Of a stretch of DNA of 64,000 nt, positions 35,673 to 50,321 are shown piece by piece. Source of the DNA: Curvibacter sp. (lineage in GTDB: Bacteria > Pseudomonadota > Gammaproteobacteria > Burkholderiales > Burkholderiaceae_C). The stretch's first letter is position 1, and each line of letters starts with the position of its first letter. Both the position numbers and the translations under genes were made by a program. The stretch lies in NCBI GenBank assembly GCA_019233055.1, contig JAFAMV010000112.1, positions 1-64,000 of the forward strand. Direction: 5' to 3'. The notes beneath the pieces were generated by a model. That model saw only the letters and a list, made by a program, of their open reading frames with translations. It had not been told where the DNA came from and made no database searches.

Positions 35673-36800
35673 TCAATCGTCGGCGTAGCGCACGGCGATC
35701 GCCCTGAAGTCGTCGGCGATGGCGATGAAGGCGTCGACGATGTCGGGGTCGAAATGCTGGCCACGGCCCTGGACCACGATCTGGCAGGCCTGTTCATGGC
35801 TGAAGGCCGGCTTGTAGACGCGGCGGCTGATCAGGGCGTCGTAGACATCGGCCACCGCCATCAGCCGCGCCGACACCGGGATGGCGTCGCCGGCCAGGCC
35901 CTCGGGATAGCCTGTGCCGTCCCATTTCTCCTGGTGGCTGTAGGCGATCTCCTTCGAGAAGGTCAGGAACTTGACCTTCATGCCCAGGCGCCGCTCGGCC
36001 TCCTCGATGGCATCGCGGCCGATGCGCGGGTGGCGCTTCATGACCTCGAACTCCTCCACCGTCAGCTTGCCCGGCTTGAGCAGGATGCTGTCGGGAATGC
36101 CGACCTTGCCGATGTCATGCAGCGGCGCCGACTTGTAGAGCAGCTCGATGTTGCGCTCGGTCAGCACCGCCTCGAAGCGGGGATGGCCCTTGAGCTGTTC
36201 GGCCAGGGCTTTCACATAGAGCTGGGTACGGCGGATGTGGTTGCCGGTCTCACTGTCGCGGGTCTCGGCCAGCGAGGCCATGACCATGATGGTGACGTCC
36301 TGGATGGCCTGGACCTCCAGGGTGCGCAGCAGCACCTCCTGCTGCAGGTAGTCGCTCTTGCTGCGCAGGAAGTCGGCCGTGGCCTTGAGGGCCAGGTGGG
36401 TCTGCACCCGGGCCAGCAGGATCGGCGGGCTGATCGGCTTGCTGATGTAGTCGACCGCGCCGAGTGACAGGCCCAACTCCTCATCCTCGACCTCCGCGCG
36501 GGCCGTCAGGAAGATGACCGGGATGTCGCGGGTGCGCGGGTTCGACTTGAGGCGGCGGCAGACCTCGTGGCCGTCGACGTCGGGCATCATCACATCGAGC
36601 AGGATCAGGTCCGGCGCCGGGTCCTGGGCCGCGATGCGCAAGGCCTTGTCGCCATGGTTGGCCACCTTCACCCGGTAATGGTCCTTGAGCAGGGAGCTCA
36701 TCAGGCTGAGGTTGTCGGCGGTGTCATCGACCACCAGCACGGTGGCGATCGGTTTGTCGATCAGGGCGAGCCTGTCGGGGGCGGGAGGGGCCAGATCCAT
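35673..36800 (-). CDS. Response regulator with HD-GYP c-di-GMP phosphodiesterase domain
   Basis: The 375-residue protein has a receiver (about 18-135) with VLVVDDTADN, phospho-acceptor in LILLDVMMPDVDG and lysine in ISKPISP. An HD-GYP domain (about 165-365) follows, with ETGNHIRRTQLYV, the metal motif HDIGKVGIPD, KRHPRIGRDAI and HQEKWDGTGYPEGL. The full HD and GYP signatures are intact, so hydrolysis of c-di-GMP controlled by phosphorylation is expected. It lies 36 bp downstream of the large hybrid kinase on the same strand; that kinase ends in an HPt domain, making this protein the likely final acceptor. Confidence 0.92.
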   Translation of the reverse strand: MDLAPPAPDRLALIDKPIATVLVVDDTADNLSLMSSLLKDHYRVKVANHGDKALRIAAQDPAPDLILLDVMMPDVDGHEVCRRLKSNPRTRDIPVIFLTARAEVEDEELGLSLGAVDYISKPISPPILLARVQTHLALKATADFLRSKSDYLQQEVLLRTLEVQAIQDVTIMVMASLAETRDSETGNHIRRTQLYVKALAEQLKGHPRFEAVLTERNIELLYKSAPLHDIGKVGIPDSILLKPGKLTVEEFEVMKRHPRIGRDAIEEAERRLGMKVKFLTFSKEIAYSHQEKWDGTGYPEGLAGDAIPVSARLMAVADVYDALISRRVYKPAFSHEQACQIVVQGRGQHFDPDIVDAFIAIADDFRAIAVRYADD

Positions 36801-36836
36801 CGGACATCTTCCATGCTGAAGGGCCTGCAGCGCTGC

Positions 36837-41645
<4,809 letters not shown>

Positions 41646-41853: not shown

Positions 41854-44800
41854 TCAGGACAACCGCCAGCAGCCATGCGCCTCCCCGGGATGCGTGGCGT
41901 CGAGCGTCGTGCGGTGCAGCGACAGCGACAAGCGCCAGCCGCCGGCCGCTTCGGGTGCCAGCCCGCACTCCAGCCAACCCGCACCGCCGAAGGCCTGGGT
42001 GTCGATGGCGACCGTGCCGGACCCCTCCTCCAGTGCCAGGGTTTCATGCCGCAGCACCTCGGCAGGCACTTCGTCGGCGAACCGCATCGGCGCGTACAGG
42101 GGCGGACAGGCCAGCGCCCAGGCGCGCAGTCCGGTGACCGCGAAATCCAGCGTCGACCAGGCCGCACACCCCCCATCGCCCCCCACCATGACCAGGTTCT
42201 CGACCTTGTGGCGAACCAGCAGGCCCAGCAGGCGCCGACGCTCCTGCGGACACCCCTGCCAGCCGTCGATGTCGCGCGGGGCGGGCACGCCCTGCCCCGC
42301 CTGCAGGCCCGGCGCAGGCAGGGCCCCCATCAGCAGGAACTTGGGCCGGGCCCCCACCCTGGTCTGGCTGGCAAGCAGCCACTGTTCGAGCGCCACCCAT
42401 TGATCGGGCGACAGCATCGCCGGTTCGGGTGCCAGGCGCCGATGGAGCCGGGTGTTCAGGCGGTAGCAAGGATGGCCGGCCCATTCGAAGGCCTGGTCAG
42501 GGGCCGGCTCGGCGCCCTGCGCAGCGGCGGGGTCGGGCGGGCTCCCCGGCCCATGCGATTGCTGGAAGACCTGGAAGCAGGCCCAGGCGTTCTCATACAA
42601 CAACTGCTGCGTCGGCCCGGCGGCCAGCCAGTCGCGGCTCCAGCCCCCGGCGATCTCGTGGGCCCCCATGCCCATCAGCAGCGGCAACTGGCGCGACACG
42701 GCGCGCCAGCCCGGCGAGCCGAAAGCATCACGGTACGGCGGCACGAAGCGCTGGATGGGCGACAGGCTGTCGATCAGGCCGGCGCTCGGATCGGCCGTCA
42801 TCTGGTCCCCAAGCATCCAGACGGCCTGGGCCGGCGCCTGCTGCTGACGCCGGGCCAGCGCCTGCAGGCCGGTATCGCGCCAGTCCAGTTCCAGCGGTGT
42901 CAGGCCGGGGTAGCGGCCCGCCACCAGAAAACAGCGCAGGCCCTGCCCGGGAGACGCCCGGTGGGCCTGCCAGACGGCGGGCCGGATGCGCAGCCAGGCT
43001 TCGCGCAGCGAGCGCAGGCTGCGCTGCCGTCGGGACAGCGTGTGGGGCTGGGCGCCCAGGGCGCAGGCCCGGGCCTGCGCCAACAGCAGGGCCAGAGGGT
43101 GCAGCAGGTCACGGGCCTGGGCCAGGTCCAACGGCCATGCCAGGGCCTGCAGGGCATCGCCCTCCTGCGCCGTGGCGGACAGGTCCGGCAAGGGACAAGG
43201 CGGTGCCGGCGGGACATCGACGCCCCGGCCGGCGGCCCGCGCAGCCTCATGGACATCCCAGCACGACGGTGTGCGCCCTTTCGAGCGCCGGGCCTCCTGG
43301 ACGCTGAGGGGCACGCCCCAGGCCTCAGGCCATGGACCGGCGGCCTGCGCACCACCCGCCACCGGCACCGGCACCGACAGGCCGTCGCTGTACCGATGCA
43401 GGCTGACGGCCAGCACATTGGCCGTGCCCTCGAGGTCCGCCGGCCAGCGCAGGTCGGCCAGCGCGTAGCAAAGGCCCAGCGTGAGCGGTGCGTGCCAGTG
43501 AGTTCGCAGGTCCTGCCGGCGCAGGGGCCAGCATTGCACCACGCAATGGCGGCCCACGTGCAGCACGGTCATGGCTGCCACAGGCTCGTCGGTCTGGCTG
43601 CAGTCCACCTCGAGCCAGACCCGCTGGACGATGTCCGCGCCTTCGCGACGCACCCAGCCCGCCAGCGGACCGGTCAGGGGAAGGCGCGCGCGCAGGCGGT
43701 CCTGCCTGGGCCGGGGCTGGGCAGGCGCCTGGAAGGCCTCATCGAAGAACGACAGCACGCTGGGGAAGATGTCACGGGGCGCGTTCTTGCCGATGGTGCA
43801 ATCGAAGTGGGCATAGCCGGGCAGCAGCAGGAAGCGGTCGTGGCCCTGCTCGCGCCGGGCACGACCGAAGGCACGGGTCAGGCGGCGACGGCTCTCGGCC
43901 AGGGATTCGGCATCGAACAGCACGTTCTCCTGTCCGTGCATGAGCATCACCGGCATGTCGAGGTAGCGCTGCAGGTGTTCCTGGGTGGTGTAGACATCCT
44001 GGCCGTCGGCATTGACCAGGTGCTCCCCCGACACGCACAGCGCCCCCTGCATGAAGACCCCGAGGTTGGTGCGCCCGAAGTACCGGTCCAGCTTCTCGTG
44101 GGTGACCTCGTGCAGTTGATCGTGCCGGAACAGGCGGCTGAGCAGGCCGGCCATGCGCTTGCAGGTGGTCGAATCGGCCTGCGCATGCAACAGGTCATGC
44201 TCATGCGGACAGCGCTCGGCGGGCTCGTAGTCGAAGCTGGCGAAGACCTGGTCGAAGGCCGCGTGCAGAGGATCGGCCTGCACCGTGCCGGCCGAGAACT
44301 GCAGATAGTCCAGGCCCAGACCGGACACCAGGGCCGTGGCCACCTGGAGCCGCATCTGCGAAGTGACCGAGCCGACGACGAAAGGCAGGAACTGCGAGAA
44401 CAGCACCCCGGCGAGCTTGGAAGCCCCGTCCTCATGCACCAGCCGGCCGCCGAGCAGCGACATGGCCAGCGAGGCCGATCCGACGCAGTGCGAGAACATG
44501 AACACCCGGCTGCCGCCGCCCTGGTGGCCGCTTTCCCGGTCGAGCGTGGCCAGCACATGGTCCACCGCCGCCGGGATTTCGCCGGCCGCGATGTCGTCCA
44601 TGCTGCAAAAGCGCGCCGAGGCCCGCAGGAAGGGGCTGACGCGGTACTCGAACAGCCACACGTCCCAGCCCTGCTCGTACAGCAGCGTCGCCAGGTTTTC
44701 AGAACCCAGTTCCTCGGCCACGAACGGCAGGGTGTTCTGGGCGAAGCCATTCATCATGAGGATGGCCCGATACCGCCGGCCCCCTTCGGCCGCCAGCACC

Positions 44801-47800
44801 CGGACCTGGGGCTGGCGGTAGCGCACCAGACCGACCCGGATCATCTCGCCCGGCCCCTCGGCGGCCGGCGACGCGGCGCGCAGGGGAACGTCCAGGCGCA
44901 CCGCCGCCTCGGGCACCACCTCCGGACCGTGGGCCGGCTTCAGGCTCGGGTAGCGCTGCCGGCTCAGCTCGAAGACCCCATCGTCGGGCCCGACGGCCCA
45001 GTCCTGCGCCGGCAGCCCGGGACGGTAGTCGGGTTGGCGGAATTCCTGTGACCGGTCCAGCAGCAGGTAGCGCGCCATCAGGGCGGGGTAGGAGGCGAAG
45101 GCCGCCAGGGACTGCATCAGGTCGCCGCCGGGTTTCAGTTGGGGCACCACGCGCCGGATCATCTCCGGCAGGTCCATGGCCAGCCGACCTTCGGCCAGCG
45201 GACGGTCCGGATCGGCACCGTACAGGCACACATCGAGCTGCGTGAGTTGCTCCCAGACGCTACGCCGCCCCAGGGGCGGCCACCCTCCCTGGCGATACCG
45301 CTCCCAGAGCCAGCGCCCCAGCTCCCCCCAGCGGGCCGAGGGGTCCATGAACTTGCGCCCCTGCAACTGCAGCTCACCAGCGCCGGTGTCGAGCTGCAGC
45401 CGGTAGGTGAAGCCACGTGTCGCCGACCCACGCCAGGCCGCCTGGATCGCGGCCCAGGCCAGGGTGCCCCAACCGGCCGCCTCGGGCGATGGCGCCGGGG
45501 CCCGCCGGCGCCGGGCCATCTGGGGCCCCCAGTTGTCGACCAGGTAGCTCAGGAAGACCCGCAGGCTGCGCTCCAGACGCACCGGCCAGGCGACCCGGCT
45601 CGGGTTGAACACCTCGACCGAACCGCCACGGACCGGCCACACCAGCGAGGGCTGTCCAGGCCGGTCAATGACCAGGCGCGAGCGGGTGAACTGGCTGTCG
45701 TCGAGTTCGGGCAGGCCGTTGCCCGGAAACACCGGCGTGCTGTGCGCCGGATCGCCCCAGAGCCGGCCCCAGTCGCGCACATCCATCTGCAGGAACAGCG
45801 CAGTCGGCAGGTTCGCCGGGCGGGCGGCCTGCGGTTGCGGCAGCCCGGGCAGCCCCTGCAGCGCCCCGGGACGCCAGCTCAGCGGTCCACGCAGCACCTC
45901 GTTGAGAGAGGTGCCGTAGAGGGGCGGCTGCGGCAGGCGCAGCGCCGGCCGCTCCTGGGGTGCCGGCGGCAGCCCGGGCGCGGCCTGGCCGGCCAGGGCC
46001 CCTGCCGAAAGGTCGGCCAGGGCGCAGGCCCGTTCGGCCAGGGCGGTGATGGTCAGCAGGGGGTTGACGCCCAGCGAGGTCGGGACGACCGAGCCATCCA
46101 TCACCCAGAGCCCCTCATGCACCCCGCCGTCGCGCCGGAAGACCTGGCAACGGTCATTGACCACGCCGGCCTCGGGCCGGTCGGCCATGCGGCAGCCCCC
46201 CAGCGGGTGCACCGTGATCCAGCCCGGCGCCTGCGCCGGGCCGCCGAGCAGGCGGGCCACCGCATCCGGCAGCACGCCCGAGGCCGGATTGGGCAGGAAC
46301 AGCCCGCCGAGCCGGGCCACGGCGGCCAGTCGACGACGGTGCAGCCCGGGCGCCAGATCGCCCGCCGTCGGAGACCAACGCCAGGCCAGGCGCTCGCTGG
46401 CGCAGCCCAGGCTGGCGCTGCCACCCGAGCCGTCATGCCCCATGCCCAGCATGACCAGGCTGCGCCGGTCGGCCGCCTCGCCCGCCACCAGGGCATCGGC
46501 CGCCCCCCTGGAGCGCCGGCCGAAGGTGGTCAGCTGCGGCAGGACGCCCAGCGTGGTGAGCAACTCGGCCACCAGCGGCTTGAGCAGGCCGGGGATGCCG
46601 CCGTCCTCGGTGACGGTGCTGCGATGCACATCGCCGGCATGGTCGAAATGGATGACACCGGTGATGGTGGGTCCAGGCGGCTCCTGCGCCCCGGGTCCGG
46701 GCGCCCGGGTCTCGTCGAGGCCGAAGCCGTCGACCACCTGAGGCAGGTCGTAGGCAACCGACAAGTCATCGCCATTGGCTGACAGGCCGTCGCCCAGGGG
46801 CCCGGTGTGCAGATCCAGGCCCAGCAGCTGCGAACGCAACAGGATTTCCGGGCTGCCCAGGGCGCCGCAGGCCAGCACCACCTGCGCACAGCGCAGACGC
46901 TGCACATGGCGCTGTGCGGCCAGCGCCGGATCCTGCGCGGCCACCTCGGCCCAGAGCCCTCGCTCCAGCGTGCGCACGACATGCACCACCCAGGGGTGCC
47001 CGGGATGCTGCGGGTCGGGCTCATGGCCGACCCACAGGCCGGTGACCCCGGTGAACAGGCGCGCCCCGCCGGCACGGGCCCGGGCCAGGTAGCTTTTGTC
47101 CAGGCTCAGCTTGGCGTGGTGCTTGCAGCCCGAGGCACAGTTGCCACAGCCGATGCAGGCCTGCCGGCGCACCCCGTCCTGCGGCGGGTCGGCGCGGAAC
47201 TCCATCACCAGGGGCACGTCCTCGACATGCACACGGACGTCGGATTCGCCTGCGGCGGCCGCGGCCCGGGCCAGGCGGTCGAGCAGATGGCGCCGCCGCG
47301 TCTGCTGGGGCACACAGGCCGGCGAGTCCTGCTGCCGGGCGCCGTCCTGGACGCCAAGTCCGTCACGGGCGCGCTCATAGAAGGCATCCAGGGCATGGAC
47401 GTCGCGCAGGACCTCGGGCCAGGCCCCCTGAGCGAACACCCGGGCATCGGGGCGCAGGGCGACCGCCGCGTTGATCAGACTGCCACCGCCCAGGCCGTTG
47501 CCCACCATGGCGGCCGCCCCCTGGCCGAGCCGGAAGTCGAACAGGGCATCCTCGTGCCCCGAGGCCTTGACCCGGCCGTGGTCCGCCACCTCGGCCCGGA
47601 CGAAGCCGGCCGCCTGGCTGAAGTCGGACGGGAAATCGCCGGCCTGGTACTCCTTGCCCCGCTCCAGCAGCCAGACCGACCGGCGGGCTTCGGTGAAGCG
47701 TTGTGCGGCCACCGCCGCGCCATAACCCGAACCGAGCACCAGGCAGTCGGGCCAGGCCTGCTCACCCCGCCCGGCCTGTGCCACCAGGGCAAAAAGCGGT

Positions 47801-47826
47801 TCCGCCGCCTCGGACAACCAGTTCAT
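41854..47826 (-). CDS. Giant fusion: GMC oxidoreductase + alpha/beta hydrolase + PhoD-like domain
   Basis: A 1990-residue protein. Residues about 25-610 are a cholesterol-oxidase-like GMC flavoprotein: LVLGSGYGAAVAAQRF binds FAD, MVGNGLGGGSLIN follows, HPLGGCRMAD and GVNPLLTITALAER are the C-terminal signatures, and CIGCGNCASGC (Cys224, 227, 230, 234) is a ferredoxin-like four-Cys set. Residues about 1000-1370 are an alpha/beta hydrolase with nucleophile elbow FSHCVGSAS (Cys1114 where Ser is usual), Glu1300 in HGQEN and His1340 in GYAHFDC as candidate acid and base. Residues about 1630-1990 resemble PhoD-type phosphatases (MLGDQMTAD, AHEIAGGW, GWQGCPQERRRLL, VMVGGDGGC) but metal-ligand positions look lost. 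No signal peptide. The start overlaps the EAL gene stop (ATGA). The substrate is unknown; steroid- or lipid-like is a family-based guess. Confidence 0.85.
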   Translation of the reverse strand: MNWLSEAAEPLFALVAQAGRGEQAWPDCLVLGSGYGAAVAAQRFTEARRSVWLLERGKEYQAGDFPSDFSQAAGFVRAEVADHGRVKASGHEDALFDFRLGQGAAAMVGNGLGGGSLINAAVALRPDARVFAQGAWPEVLRDVHALDAFYERARDGLGVQDGARQQDSPACVPQQTRRRHLLDRLARAAAAAGESDVRVHVEDVPLVMEFRADPPQDGVRRQACIGCGNCASGCKHHAKLSLDKSYLARARAGGARLFTGVTGLWVGHEPDPQHPGHPWVVHVVRTLERGLWAEVAAQDPALAAQRHVQRLRCAQVVLACGALGSPEILLRSQLLGLDLHTGPLGDGLSANGDDLSVAYDLPQVVDGFGLDETRAPGPGAQEPPGPTITGVIHFDHAGDVHRSTVTEDGGIPGLLKPLVAELLTTLGVLPQLTTFGRRSRGAADALVAGEAADRRSLVMLGMGHDGSGGSASLGCASERLAWRWSPTAGDLAPGLHRRRLAAVARLGGLFLPNPASGVLPDAVARLLGGPAQAPGWITVHPLGGCRMADRPEAGVVNDRCQVFRRDGGVHEGLWVMDGSVVPTSLGVNPLLTITALAERACALADLSAGALAGQAAPGLPPAPQERPALRLPQPPLYGTSLNEVLRGPLSWRPGALQGLPGLPQPQAARPANLPTALFLQMDVRDWGRLWGDPAHSTPVFPGNGLPELDDSQFTRSRLVIDRPGQPSLVWPVRGGSVEVFNPSRVAWPVRLERSLRVFLSYLVDNWGPQMARRRRAPAPSPEAAGWGTLAWAAIQAAWRGSATRGFTYRLQLDTGAGELQLQGRKFMDPSARWGELGRWLWERYRQGGWPPLGRRSVWEQLTQLDVCLYGADPDRPLAEGRLAMDLPEMIRRVVPQLKPGGDLMQSLAAFASYPALMARYLLLDRSQEFRQPDYRPGLPAQDWAVGPDDGVFELSRQRYPSLKPAHGPEVVPEAAVRLDVPLRAASPAAEGPGEMIRVGLVRYRQPQVRVLAAEGGRRYRAILMMNGFAQNTLPFVAEELGSENLATLLYEQGWDVWLFEYRVSPFLRASARFCSMDDIAAGEIPAAVDHVLATLDRESGHQGGGSRVFMFSHCVGSASLAMSLLGGRLVHEDGASKLAGVLFSQFLPFVVGSVTSQMRLQVATALVSGLGLDYLQFSAGTVQADPLHAAFDQVFASFDYEPAERCPHEHDLLHAQADSTTCKRMAGLLSRLFRHDQLHEVTHEKLDRYFGRTNLGVFMQGALCVSGEHLVNADGQDVYTTQEHLQRYLDMPVMLMHGQENVLFDAESLAESRRRLTRAFGRARREQGHDRFLLLPGYAHFDCTIGKNAPRDIFPSVLSFFDEAFQAPAQPRPRQDRLRARLPLTGPLAGWVRREGADIVQRVWLEVDCSQTDEPVAAMTVLHVGRHCVVQCWPLRRQDLRTHWHAPLTLGLCYALADLRWPADLEGTANVLAVSLHRYSDGLSVPVPVAGGAQAAGPWPEAWGVPLSVQEARRSKGRTPSCWDVHEAARAAGRGVDVPPAPPCPLPDLSATAQEGDALQALAWPLDLAQARDLLHPLALLLAQARACALGAQPHTLSRRQRSLRSLREAWLRIRPAVWQAHRASPGQGLRCFLVAGRYPGLTPLELDWRDTGLQALARRQQQAPAQAVWMLGDQMTADPSAGLIDSLSPIQRFVPPYRDAFGSPGWRAVSRQLPLLMGMGAHEIAGGWSRDWLAAGPTQQLLYENAWACFQVFQQSHGPGSPPDPAAAQGAEPAPDQAFEWAGHPCYRLNTRLHRRLAPEPAMLSPDQWVALEQWLLASQTRVGARPKFLLMGALPAPGLQAGQGVPAPRDIDGWQGCPQERRRLLGLLVRHKVENLVMVGGDGGCAAWSTLDFAVTGLRAWALACPPLYAPMRFADEVPAEVLRHETLALEEGSGTVAIDTQAFGGAGWLECGLAPEAAGGWRLSLSLHRTTLDATHPGEAHGCWRLS

Positions 47827-50321
47827 GTGTGATCTCCTCGATCAGCGGCCCCGACCGGTTCGGCCTCTGCGGCCGGCCGTGGCGGGACAAAGGGAATGTG
47901 GGCGGCCACCCAGGCAGCCAACTGAGCGGCCGGCATCGGGCGTGCCGCAAACCAGCCTTGGGCCTGGTCGCAGTGCAGGGCCTGCAACATGGCCCATTCC
48001 TGCGCCGTCTCGGCGCCTTCGGCCACCACCACCAGGCCCAGCCGATGGCCCATGGCGATGATCGATTCGAGCAGCGACTGGGCATCCGGGCTGCGCTGCA
48101 CCTCGCGCACGAAGGCCCGATCGACCTTCAGCTCCGAGACCGGCATCTTCTGCAGATAGGACAGCGAGGAATAGCCGGTGCCGAAATCGTCGATCGACAG
48201 ACTGAAGCCGGCCCCGCGCAACTCGTGCATCACCGCCAGGGCCGTCTGCGCGTCGCGCATGGCCGCGCTTTCGGTGATCTCCAAGCAGAGATCGGCCGGA
48301 TCGGCCCCCAGCCGCTCGGCCAGGGCGCGCACCGAGGCCGAGAACAGCGGGTCGGACATGTCGTGGGTGGACAGGTTGACCGAGATCTTCAGCGGCTGCC
48401 CCGCCGCGCGCCACTGCACCGTGGCCTCCAGCGCCTGGCCCAGCATCCAGTGGGTGAGCTCGGTGATGCGCCCGGTCTTCTCGGCAAAGGGCACGAATTC
48501 GGACGGCGGCACCATGCCACGCTCCGGGTGCTGCCAGCGCACCAGGGCCTCGGCACCGCTGAGCGTCCCGTCGGACAGACGGATCTTGGGCTGCAGGAAC
48601 ATCCGCAGCTCGTTGTGCGTCACCGCGCGCTTGAGCTGGGACAGCAGCCCCAGGTCGGCCATGCGGTTAACCTCCATCGAGGCCTGGTAGCTGAGCCAGG
48701 GCCGGTGCAGCGCACGGGCCGTCTCCAGGGCCACCTCGGCATCGCGGATCAACTCGGCCATGGACTGTCCGCCGCCATGCAGCGAACTGCCCGCCACCAC
48801 CGACAGGTCCACGCTCTGCCCCCTGACCTCGGCCGCCGCCACAAAGGCCTGCTGCAGACCCTGCTGCAGTTGGACGGCCGGCACCGGCGTCTGGAACAGC
48901 AGCGCGAACTGGTCGGCATGCATGCGGGCCAGTTGGAACGGGGCGAAACGCCCCGCCAGCGAGGCCAGGCGACGTGCCGCCTCGCAGAGCAGCTGATCGC
49001 CCAGCTCGGTGCCCAGCACCTCGTTGATCGCATGGAAGCGCTCGATGTTGACCACCAGGACCTGAGGCGAGGCACCCCCGTCCACCCATTGCTGCCCCTG
49101 GCTGCGCAGCCCTTCGCGGTTGAGCCAGCCGGTCAGGCTGTCGTACATGAGCAGGCGCGACGACTCGCGCAAGGCCCGCAGGGTGCGGTCCGCCAGGCCA
49201 TAGCAGAACACCGCCGGCAGGACCAGGGTGCGCAGCAGGTCGAAATCCGATCCGATCGCCAGTTCGATGGGCACCGGCTGACGCAGCACCACCGCATAGA
49301 AAAGGAACACCAGCCAATAGACCGTGATCGGCACCATGCCCACCAGCAGCACGCCGCTGGCCCGCTCGCCGGCACGCCAGCCGTTCCAGTTTCCCGCCAG
49401 GCCGACCACGAAGTGCAAGGGCAGCAGCACATAGACGACCGGATTGACCCATTGCGGCGCCAGCCATTCGAGCGGTATCAGGGCCATGAAGGCCCAGCAG
49501 ATCAGGACCGCCGCCACCGCCATGCGCGGGCTGTGCAGGCGGAAGCGGCCGAAACGCAGGTACAGCCATGCCGACAGCCCCGAGACCGCAAACTGCAGCA
49601 AGGCGGCATTCAGCCACAGCGGCGCCAGCGGCGGCCAGACGAAACCCAGGCCGCTCTTGGCCAGGTGCGTCATGGCCTGGACCGTGGCATAGAGGGCGTA
49701 GATGCCGTAGTCGGGATCGCGCAGCGCGAACAGGAAGAACAGCGCCAGGAAGGAGGTGGTGACCAGAAAGGCCACTGCGGCCATGTTGATCAGATCGGCC
49801 TGGCCGTCCGCCAGATCCAGCCGCGCCGGGTCGACCAGCGCGATGCGCACATGGCGATCGATGGCCGGGATGTCGAGGCTGCCCGCCACCGGGGCGAGCC
49901 GGGCATACAAGGGCCAGGTCACCGCCTCGCCCAGCACGAAGGCCGCCTTGCGCCCGGTGACCCAAGCGTGGTCCTGGACACCGAGTCGGGATGCCGACCC
50001 GAGCGGCCGCCCCTGGGCATCGAAGACGCCGATGTCCACCCGCTGCATGTGCAGATCGCCGAACACCAGCCAGGACGGCGCAAGCGGTGTCGCCTCGGCG
50101 GTCGCCCGTCCCAGGCGCACCCAACAGACCTCATTGCGCCGCTGCACCGGTACCCCGTCGCCGTCTGCCCGCCGCCAGGCATCGGCGGCCAGGGCGCCCA
50201 GGGACTGTGACGGCGGACCGCATTGGTAGTCCAGGGCCAGCAAAGGCGGCTGCGCGCCGGCCACCCGCCCCCAAAGGCAGGTCAGAAACACGACCAGCAG
50301 TCCCACGCGGCGCCAGATCAC
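47823..50321 (-). CDS. 7TM sensor with degenerate GGDEF and intact EAL c-di-GMP phosphodiesterase domain
   Basis: The 832-residue protein has a signal peptide (about 1-23), a periplasmic 7TMR-DISM extracellular-type domain (about 30-170) and seven membrane helices (about 175-380). A GGDEF domain at about 390-550 has its active site reduced to HADQF (468-472) and should be catalytically dead. The EAL domain (about 560-810) keeps Glu591-Ala-Leu593, Asn649, DDFGTG (711-716), Lys732/Asp734 and Glu768, so it should hydrolyse c-di-GMP. The stop overlaps the start of the GMC fusion by four bases, implying translational coupling. The ligand sensed is unknown. Confidence 0.9.
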   Translation of the reverse strand: MIWRRVGLLVVFLTCLWGRVAGAQPPLLALDYQCGPPSQSLGALAADAWRRADGDGVPVQRRNEVCWVRLGRATAEATPLAPSWLVFGDLHMQRVDIGVFDAQGRPLGSASRLGVQDHAWVTGRKAAFVLGEAVTWPLYARLAPVAGSLDIPAIDRHVRIALVDPARLDLADGQADLINMAAVAFLVTTSFLALFFLFALRDPDYGIYALYATVQAMTHLAKSGLGFVWPPLAPLWLNAALLQFAVSGLSAWLYLRFGRFRLHSPRMAVAAVLICWAFMALIPLEWLAPQWVNPVVYVLLPLHFVVGLAGNWNGWRAGERASGVLLVGMVPITVYWLVFLFYAVVLRQPVPIELAIGSDFDLLRTLVLPAVFCYGLADRTLRALRESSRLLMYDSLTGWLNREGLRSQGQQWVDGGASPQVLVVNIERFHAINEVLGTELGDQLLCEAARRLASLAGRFAPFQLARMHADQFALLFQTPVPAVQLQQGLQQAFVAAAEVRGQSVDLSVVAGSSLHGGGQSMAELIRDAEVALETARALHRPWLSYQASMEVNRMADLGLLSQLKRAVTHNELRMFLQPKIRLSDGTLSGAEALVRWQHPERGMVPPSEFVPFAEKTGRITELTHWMLGQALEATVQWRAAGQPLKISVNLSTHDMSDPLFSASVRALAERLGADPADLCLEITESAAMRDAQTALAVMHELRGAGFSLSIDDFGTGYSSLSYLQKMPVSELKVDRAFVREVQRSPDAQSLLESIIAMGHRLGLVVVAEGAETAQEWAMLQALHCDQAQGWFAARPMPAAQLAAWVAAHIPFVPPRPAAEAEPVGAADRGDHT

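Follow-up and report, generated by a model that had tools for sequence, protein, structure and literature searches.

Several kinds of enzyme bear comparison with a protein encoded in the 64,000-nucleotide stretch of Curvibacter sp. DNA analysed here (GenBank assembly GCA_019233055.1, contig JAFAMV010000112.1, positions 1 to 64,000; "the window"). Enzymes of the GMC superfamily use a His/Asn (or His/His) catalytic pair, and the direct electron transfer-type FAD glucose dehydrogenase of B. cepacia (BcGDH) holds a 3Fe-4S cluster by Cys212, Cys218 and Cys222 (PMC6719666). The ligands of B. subtilis PhoD include Cys-180 (iron), a Tyr, Asn-272 (calcium) and the metal-bridging Asp-436 (PMC4223295). 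An artificial cysteine lipase was made by Cen et al. (2019), who asked whether natural ones exist (PMC6642262). In the window, a GMC oxidoreductase, an alpha/beta hydrolase and a PhoD-like domain are encoded in one open reading frame (ORF), with the following parts:

41854..47826, minus strand: whole fusion ORF, 1990 aa, with an ATG start and no internal stops
46009..47757, minus strand: GMC oxidoreductase domain, residues 24-606, with the catalytic pair His540/Asn588 (Pfam, profile, conservation)
47125..47157, minus strand: C224-x2-C227-x2-C230-x3-C234, an Fe-S-type motif within the GMC domain (conservation, spacing compared with BcGDH)
44827..45921, minus strand: linker domain, residues 636-1000, with E643-x3-G647 ... 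Y808 ... K825 (model, profile comparison)
43717..44775, minus strand: alpha/beta hydrolase of acid-lipase fold, residues 1018-1370 (predicted fold, profile)
44485..44487, minus strand: Cys1114, aligned to the serine of GHSQG in human gastric lipase (profile alignment, conservation)
43924..43926, minus strand: Asn1301, aligned with a weak E-value to the Asp of GGNDLL in dog gastric lipase (profile alignment, conservation)
43807..43809, minus strand: His1340, aligned to the His of YNHLDF in gastric lipase (profile alignment, conservation)
43387..43674, minus strand: beta domain ahead of the PhoD core, about residues 1385-1480 (predicted model)
41947..42975, minus strand: PhoD-like metallophosphatase domain, residues 1618-1960 (fold), lacking the Cys, Tyr, Asp, Asp, Asp/Asn and His discussed below

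We interpret this protein as a multi-enzyme chain that is located in the cytosol, controlled by a sensor and directed at a lipid-like substrate (esters, alcohols), with a probability of about 0.57. A preliminary description made from the sequence had proposed the three-part fusion and a cholesterol-oxidase-like GMC part; both are borne out by the analysis. It made no mention of the Cys-His-Asn triad, the Fe-S-type cysteines, the linker as a conserved domain or the sensor genes linked to the enzyme.

The fusion ORF is confirmed as genuine, with three enzyme types in one chain. A Shine-Dalgarno-like GAGGAG lies a few bases 5' of the ATG, and the start shares 4 nt (ATGA) with the stop of the preceding gene. 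The GC content by codon position is even along the whole chain. The best 19-residue Kyte-Doolittle mean is 1.55, and no strongly hydrophobic segment resembling a transmembrane helix was seen.

Relatives were searched first in 60 genomes. Apart from matches in the genome of the window itself, these gave GMC-hydrolase proteins for which PhoD was either a separate protein or not found. The C-terminal third of the protein was then searched in 299 genomes of the family. It matched in 31 of the 299, and nine of the strongest matches outside the window's genome lie in frames of 1790-2443 codons. A species-genome collection was scanned with a nine-row alignment (A1); the best 80 of at least 545 relatives were taken as named loci (L numbers below), and all of their ORFs were scanned with profiles built in this work. 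A quick tree (LG+G4, midpoint root) contains 73 rows after three duplicate genomes were dropped. GMC, hydrolase and PhoD occur in a single frame in 36 of these rows, the window included, and PhoD is a separate downstream gene in 12 (assigned by hand; at the nine junctions checked, its ORF starts between 207 nt inside and 39 nt behind the preceding ORF). PhoD is upstream in one row (Amphritea), a calcineurin-type phosphoesterase is adjacent in seven (one kind in 6, another in 1), no such gene was seen in 16, and in one row the locus runs off its contig. The fused form occurs, among other genera, in Rhodoferax, Pseudacidovorax, Variovorax, Polaromonas, Ramlibacter, Caenimonas, Janthinobacterium, Pelomonas, Hahella, Bradyrhizobium, Ruegeria, Chelatococcus and Exilibacterium. 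The tree requires two changes in PhoD linkage and five between the fused and split states. Cyanobacteria, Bacteroidota, actinobacteria, Acidobacteria and others harbour two-part GMC-hydrolases as well as GMC and hydrolase encoded by separate genes. The linker-hydrolase part is present in 34 of the 250 genomes of the family examined, spread over 26 of 141 genera. No description of the architecture appeared among the entries listed in searches of the open-licence PMC literature, which covered the enzymes and their context as well as Cys-His-Asn triads; this does not prove its absence.

These counts bear on whether separate genes were joined through a sequencing or assembly error. Such an artefact could draw on the 12 of 48 PhoD-linked loci in which PhoD is separate, adjacent or overlapping. 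However, the fused rows are spread over several clades and genera, the window and its three nearest rows (L075, L080 and L083; identity 62% at best, SH-aLRT 100) form a clade, starred in the tree, in which every member is fused, and the codon-position GC is even. We therefore reject an error as the source of the fusion, given the 36 of 73 fused tree rows, and put its probability close to nil. The preliminary description would have been undermined by homologues always split near residue 1380, which is not the pattern seen.

The GMC domain was recognised by Pfam through GMC_oxred_C (2.5e-14, 54.4 bits; cut-off 24.6) and GMC_oxred_N (3e-10, 40.7 bits; cut-off 23), and cholesterol oxidase is the best PDB profile match of A1 (2.3e-43). 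Residue conservation was counted over all hidden Markov model rows, including the second genome copies (L061/L079, L064/L121 and L070/L120) and two-piece proteins. On this basis His540 and Asn588 are present in 99 of 99 non-gap rows. The fusion shares this His/Asn pair and the FAD-binding GSGYG motif with cholesterol oxidase and other GMC enzymes, but adds a four-cysteine motif, the linker and the hydrolase. C224, C230 and C234 occur in 101 of 101 non-gap rows and C227 in 99 of 101. The C-x5-C-x3-C spacing of the three invariant residues equals that of Cys212/218/222 in BcGDH, a comparison of spacing and not of position in the fold, and the GMC part may thus bind an Fe-S cluster. BcGDH also shares the GMC fold (PMC6719666), but the fourth cysteine of the fusion is at another place, and the profile match to 6a2u, used for the BcGDH-type comparison, is weak (9.4e-9). 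In a Caldithrix metagenome-assembled genome (L113:654-5434) there are two consecutive GMC genes, the second with an altered cysteine motif.

The best NCBIfam model for the fusion is cholesterol oxidase NF058674, at 147.7 bits against an equivalog cut-off of 850, and membership in this equivalog was rejected by score. Three of four relatives also matched flavoprotein models, with cholesterol oxidase at the top and all far under their cut-offs; no NCBIfam model matched the separate PhoD protein of L024.

No Pfam match was found for the window's own hydrolase part. Abhydrolase_1 matched 4 of 4 hydrolase-bearing relatives scanned, three of them above the cut-off. The predicted model is closest in fold to human lysosomal acid lipase (6v7n; Z 32.3, rmsd 3.2, 335 aligned), followed by gastric lipases (Z 31.4 and 30.4) and StnA (26.0), and the hydrolase profile matched human gastric lipase (1hlg) with E 5.7e-21. 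We take the triad of gastric lipase to consist of the Ser of GHSQG, the His of YNHLDF and the Asp of GGNDLL. The aligned columns hold Cys (Cys1114) in 90 of 91 non-gap rows in place of the serine nucleophile, His (His1340) in 89 of 90, and, in place of the aspartate, Asn (Asn1301) in 86 of 89, the remaining three rows having Ser. The hydrolase shares its predicted fold (Z 30-32) and the motifs around the nucleophile and the His with gastric and lysosomal acid lipases, but differs in having Cys-His-Asn, in being fused and in lacking a signal-like hydrophobic segment.

Dienelactone hydrolase and polyhydroxyalkanoate (PHA) synthase are known cysteine alpha/beta hydrolases. The PHA synthases, which presumably resemble the hydrolase part in placing a Cys nucleophile within an alpha/beta hydrolase, reached a Z of about 23 against the model, below the acid lipases, and they differ at the third residue, which is Asn here. 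From its aligned residues, the hydrolase is a candidate natural "cysteine lipase" in which Ser-His-Asp has been replaced by Cys-His-Asn. The engineered CALB QW4 is a lipase that works with a Cys nucleophile, as proposed here, but it was evolved in the laboratory, from another lipase, and has a Cys-His-Asp triad (PMC6642262).

Together, the nearest solved GMC relative (cholesterol oxidase) and the nearest hydrolase fold (lysosomal acid lipase, a cholesteryl ester hydrolase) would suit a catabolic enzyme that combines ester hydrolysis with oxidation on substrates of sterol or hopanoid type, with regulation incidental. The equivalog score far below its cut-off speaks against this, as does the scattered distribution among family genomes (34 of 250), and we consider it quite improbable.

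The roughly 370 residues between these two parts (about 620-1000) had been described as without a recognisable domain. No relative was found for them by sequence: no Pfam family was matched by more than one of 18 members (best E 0.031), and the sole PDB sequence listed had E 0.8. They constitute one conserved, undescribed domain. Linkers of fused and two-part proteins aligned with each other using hhalign (98.8%, E 1.2e-16, 234 columns), and in the predicted model of residues 603-1382 (mean pLDDT 89.9) the linker forms beta strands and long helices.

The C-terminal part scored under the Pfam cut-off for PhoD (3.6e-5, 23.5 bits; cut-off 27), and reached 28.7 bits when scored with its neighbours in frame. 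In the predicted model of this part (mean pLDDT 84.1) the best fold match is B. subtilis PhoD (2yeq; Z 29.2, rmsd 3.3, 409 aligned). We take the Asps of the DDHE motif and the His of GDxH to be residues of the PhoD metal site. The full set of metal-site residues is not retained in the window. The column of PhoD Cys-180 holds Cys in 55 of 55 other rows and a gap in the window. The Tyr of GDQxYxD (55/55 other rows) is Thr, the two DDHE Asps (each 55/55) are Gly and Ala, and the GDxH His (55/55) is Gly. The Asp/Asn three residues after DDHE (54/55), which adjoins the residue aligned with Asn-272, is also Gly. These residues are intact in the three nearest relatives of the window.

Against three outgroups, the PhoD domain of the window shows 37-41% identity, and those of its sisters 46-50%. 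In the GMC and hydrolase domains the window is at most 5 points below the sisters, and in the linker up to 7. The PhoD domain is probably still made, because the frame and codon-position GC are kept. The window PhoD is probably a pseudo-phosphatase, judging from its residues. Elsewhere, the genome encodes another PhoD (341 bits against the family). No further genome with this degenerate PhoD was found among 9 genomes of the genus examined, so the loss rests on one assembly. With regard to the PhoD / S. chromofuscus phospholipase D family (PMC4223295), the fold is shared and the relatives' PhoD keeps the iron-binding Cys and both motifs, DDHE and GDxH, but the window copy differs in lacking six conserved residues and in being fused and cytosolic.

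The fusion is accompanied by signalling genes on the same strand:

47823..50321, minus strand: 7TMR-DISM / GGDEF (degenerate, MHADQF) / EAL protein of 832 aa, upstream, with the 4-nt ATGA overlap with the fusion
36837..41645, minus strand: PAS hybrid histidine kinase (HisKA, HATPase, REC, Hpt), downstream, 208 nt after the fusion
35673..36800, minus strand: REC-HD-GYP response regulator (domain assignment)

The downstream kinase and regulator (35673-41645) are presumably an RpfC/RpfG-like pair. No such PAS hybrid kinase gene was matched directly behind the fusion in L075, L080 or L083. The degenerate GGDEF (MHADQF), with the EAL and DDFGTG motifs kept, is common to the window, L075, L083 and L088, and this motif pattern suggests breakdown of cyclic di-GMP (c-di-GMP).

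For a tally of gene context we considered the 48 PhoD-linked tree rows (Amphritea left out), of which 45 are assessable, as L081, L089 and L108 are at contig ends. A signalling gene adjoins the enzyme at 44 of the 45; L080 has none. Hybrid histidine kinases are found at 37: 32 lie upstream in the same orientation as the enzyme, 1 is fused with it in frame, 2 are divergent and 2 convergent, the last behind PhoD in L104 and L115. The kinases of L096 and L103 are broken or cut. A GGDEF-EAL gene is beside the enzyme at three loci (the window, L075 and L083) and a large divergent cyclase/AAA gene at four (L107 and L097 by Pfam; L114 and L137 by a similar protein start). In the alphaproteobacterial L107:3431-7486 and L097:3712-7935, this 1350-1410 aa guanylate cyclase + AAA_16 gene replaces the kinase. 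Among further loci, L169 and L170 have the fused enzyme together with the kinase, and L167 has the split form and no kinase; L163, L164 and L166 have a kinase and no enzyme in the region fetched, and the kinase of L165 is at a contig end. HisKA, HATPase and REC domains were identified in the eight kinases first tested, in the L024 kinase and in the N-terminal part of the L068 protein. A hydropathy count of 35 sensor regions gave six hydrophobic segments in 15 and two to five in the rest.

A search of 250 family genomes put the sensor domain of these kinases within 8 kb of 26 of 37 enzyme (GMC-hydrolase) places, with the nearest match on the enzyme's strand, and 21 of the 25 best sensor matches adjoin the enzyme. 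The count used 37 of 38 enzyme places (a weak one on G000 C179 was dropped) and 42 sensor places, on contigs able to matter plus the best 25. In three genomes of the window's genus (G002, G003 and G006), GGDEF-EAL proteins carry the same sensor domain (E 9e-22 to 2e-18, 5606 ORFs), and their genes precede a phosphoesterase and a GMC(-hydrolase) gene. This arrangement of sensor-type GGDEF-EAL, calcineurin-type phosphoesterase and GMC(-hydrolase), seen in the genus at L021:9934-13369 and L022:2185-7988, is a second, separate version of the system. A relationship of the window's own GGDEF-EAL protein to this sensor domain was looked for and not found (E 7); it has 7TMR-DISM.

The enzyme might make or destroy a diffusible lipid signal read by the neighbouring membrane kinase, with c-di-GMP or a LuxR-type regulator as the output, much as CqsA makes the signal for CqsS. 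The sensor domain stays by the enzyme while the output varies (histidine kinase in most, GGDEF-EAL in G002, G003 and G006), and the response regulators vary as well. A REC-PAS-GGDEF-EAL gene is ahead of the kinase in L024, L093 and L165, and LuxR-type response regulators occur in L061, L092, L126 and L068, and lie ahead of the kinase in L061, L092 and L068. Kinase and enzyme form one frame in L068 (L068:5201-12334, in a single-contig genome), which encodes kinase-REC-GMC-linker-hydrolase-PhoD in 2377 codons without a stop, and a Cys nucleophile would suit acyl transfer. However, many genomes have a member of the sensor-domain family and lack the enzyme (97 versus 34 of 250), and ordinary substrate-induced regulation explains the linkage equally well. 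We regard a lipid signal of this kind as unlikely.

More distant clusters contain lipid-type neighbours. The gene order in Pedobacter (L119:7839-16571) is hydrolase, acetoacetate-decarboxylase (ADC)-like, patatin, calcineurin-type phosphoesterase and GMC, and in Nostoc (L109:7992-14507) it is GMC, hydrolase, ADC-like and patatin. No paper on this cluster of GMC, cysteine hydrolase, ADC-like and patatin genes was found in a search of the open-licence PMC literature. From the two clusters it follows that a phosphoesterase or phospholipase repeatedly accompanies the GMC-hydrolase pair. These neighbours point to lipids without showing them. The successive processing of one hydrophobic substrate, suggested in the preliminary description, is plausible in view of the acid-lipase fold and of the neighbouring patatin, decarboxylase-like and metallophosphoesterase genes. 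In the window, however, it is unlikely that all three steps are active, because its PhoD has lost six residues that its relatives keep.

From the architecture, predicted folds, residue conservation, PhoD residue loss and gene linkage we infer the chemistry, substrate and regulation of the multi-enzyme chain as follows. In the acid-lipase-fold domain, Cys1114, helped by His1340 and Asn1301, would attack an ester or thioester, and the domain would then free or transfer the acyl group. An alcohol would be oxidised at the FAD of the GMC domain by His540/Asn588, and the electrons may pass to an Fe-S cluster on C224/C230/C234, with C227 near. The linker domain would connect GMC and hydrolase and possibly hold the substrate. 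The PhoD of relatives would remove a phosphate or head group; in the window, where its metal site appears lost, the domain may persist as a structural or regulatory part. The adjacent membrane sensor (hybrid kinase in most relatives, 7TM GGDEF-EAL in the window) may set expression of the enzyme or read the state of the substrate.

Several observations weigh against the interpretation as a sensor-controlled lipid enzyme. The proposed substrate is guessed from the predicted folds and the neighbouring genes. PhoD may be a separate gene, and covalent fusion is therefore not essential. The E-values of the Asn-for-Asp alignment are weak taken alone (0.025 and 0.15), and the case for an Fe-S cluster is the cysteine spacing by itself. 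The window PhoD keeps D1674, D1679, H1723, E1724 and D1884, the last aligned with Asp-436, and may therefore still bind some metal. Four of the 25 best sensor matches are non-adjacent (for three, the region fetched contains no enzyme; the fourth is at a contig end), and 11 of the 37 enzyme places have no sensor domain nearby, some being at contig ends. The sensor domain is present in 97 of 250 genomes, compared with 34 for the linker-hydrolase part, and is therefore not peculiar to this system. Neither the window nor the rest of its genome gave a match to it at E <= 1e-10, where 13 of the 64 candidates were scored, and a search for a kinase partner elsewhere in the window's genome returned generic kinases only (28 matches at E <= 1e-10; the best 31% over residues 188-522 of 572, the kinase and receiver part).

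In its most specific form, the proposal is that a natural cysteine lipase family (Cys-His-Asn, acid-lipase fold) was joined with an Fe-S flavin dehydrogenase and a phosphodiesterase round a new linker, making or consuming a lipid read by the adjacent sensor, and that in the window's lineage the phosphodiesterase is now a pseudo-enzyme and the kinase was swapped for a c-di-GMP phosphodiesterase-type sensor. We hold this combination as a whole to be rather doubtful. The loci offer an unnamed conserved domain and a repeated pairing of the enzyme set with metallophosphoesterases of PhoD and calcineurin type. One sensor domain stays beside the enzyme while the output switches between His-Asp signalling and c-di-GMP, and the window adds a probable pseudo-phosphatase within an otherwise conserved fusion. 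The family, present in several phyla, is a concrete candidate for a natural cysteine lipase, and as such would answer the question raised in PMC6642262.

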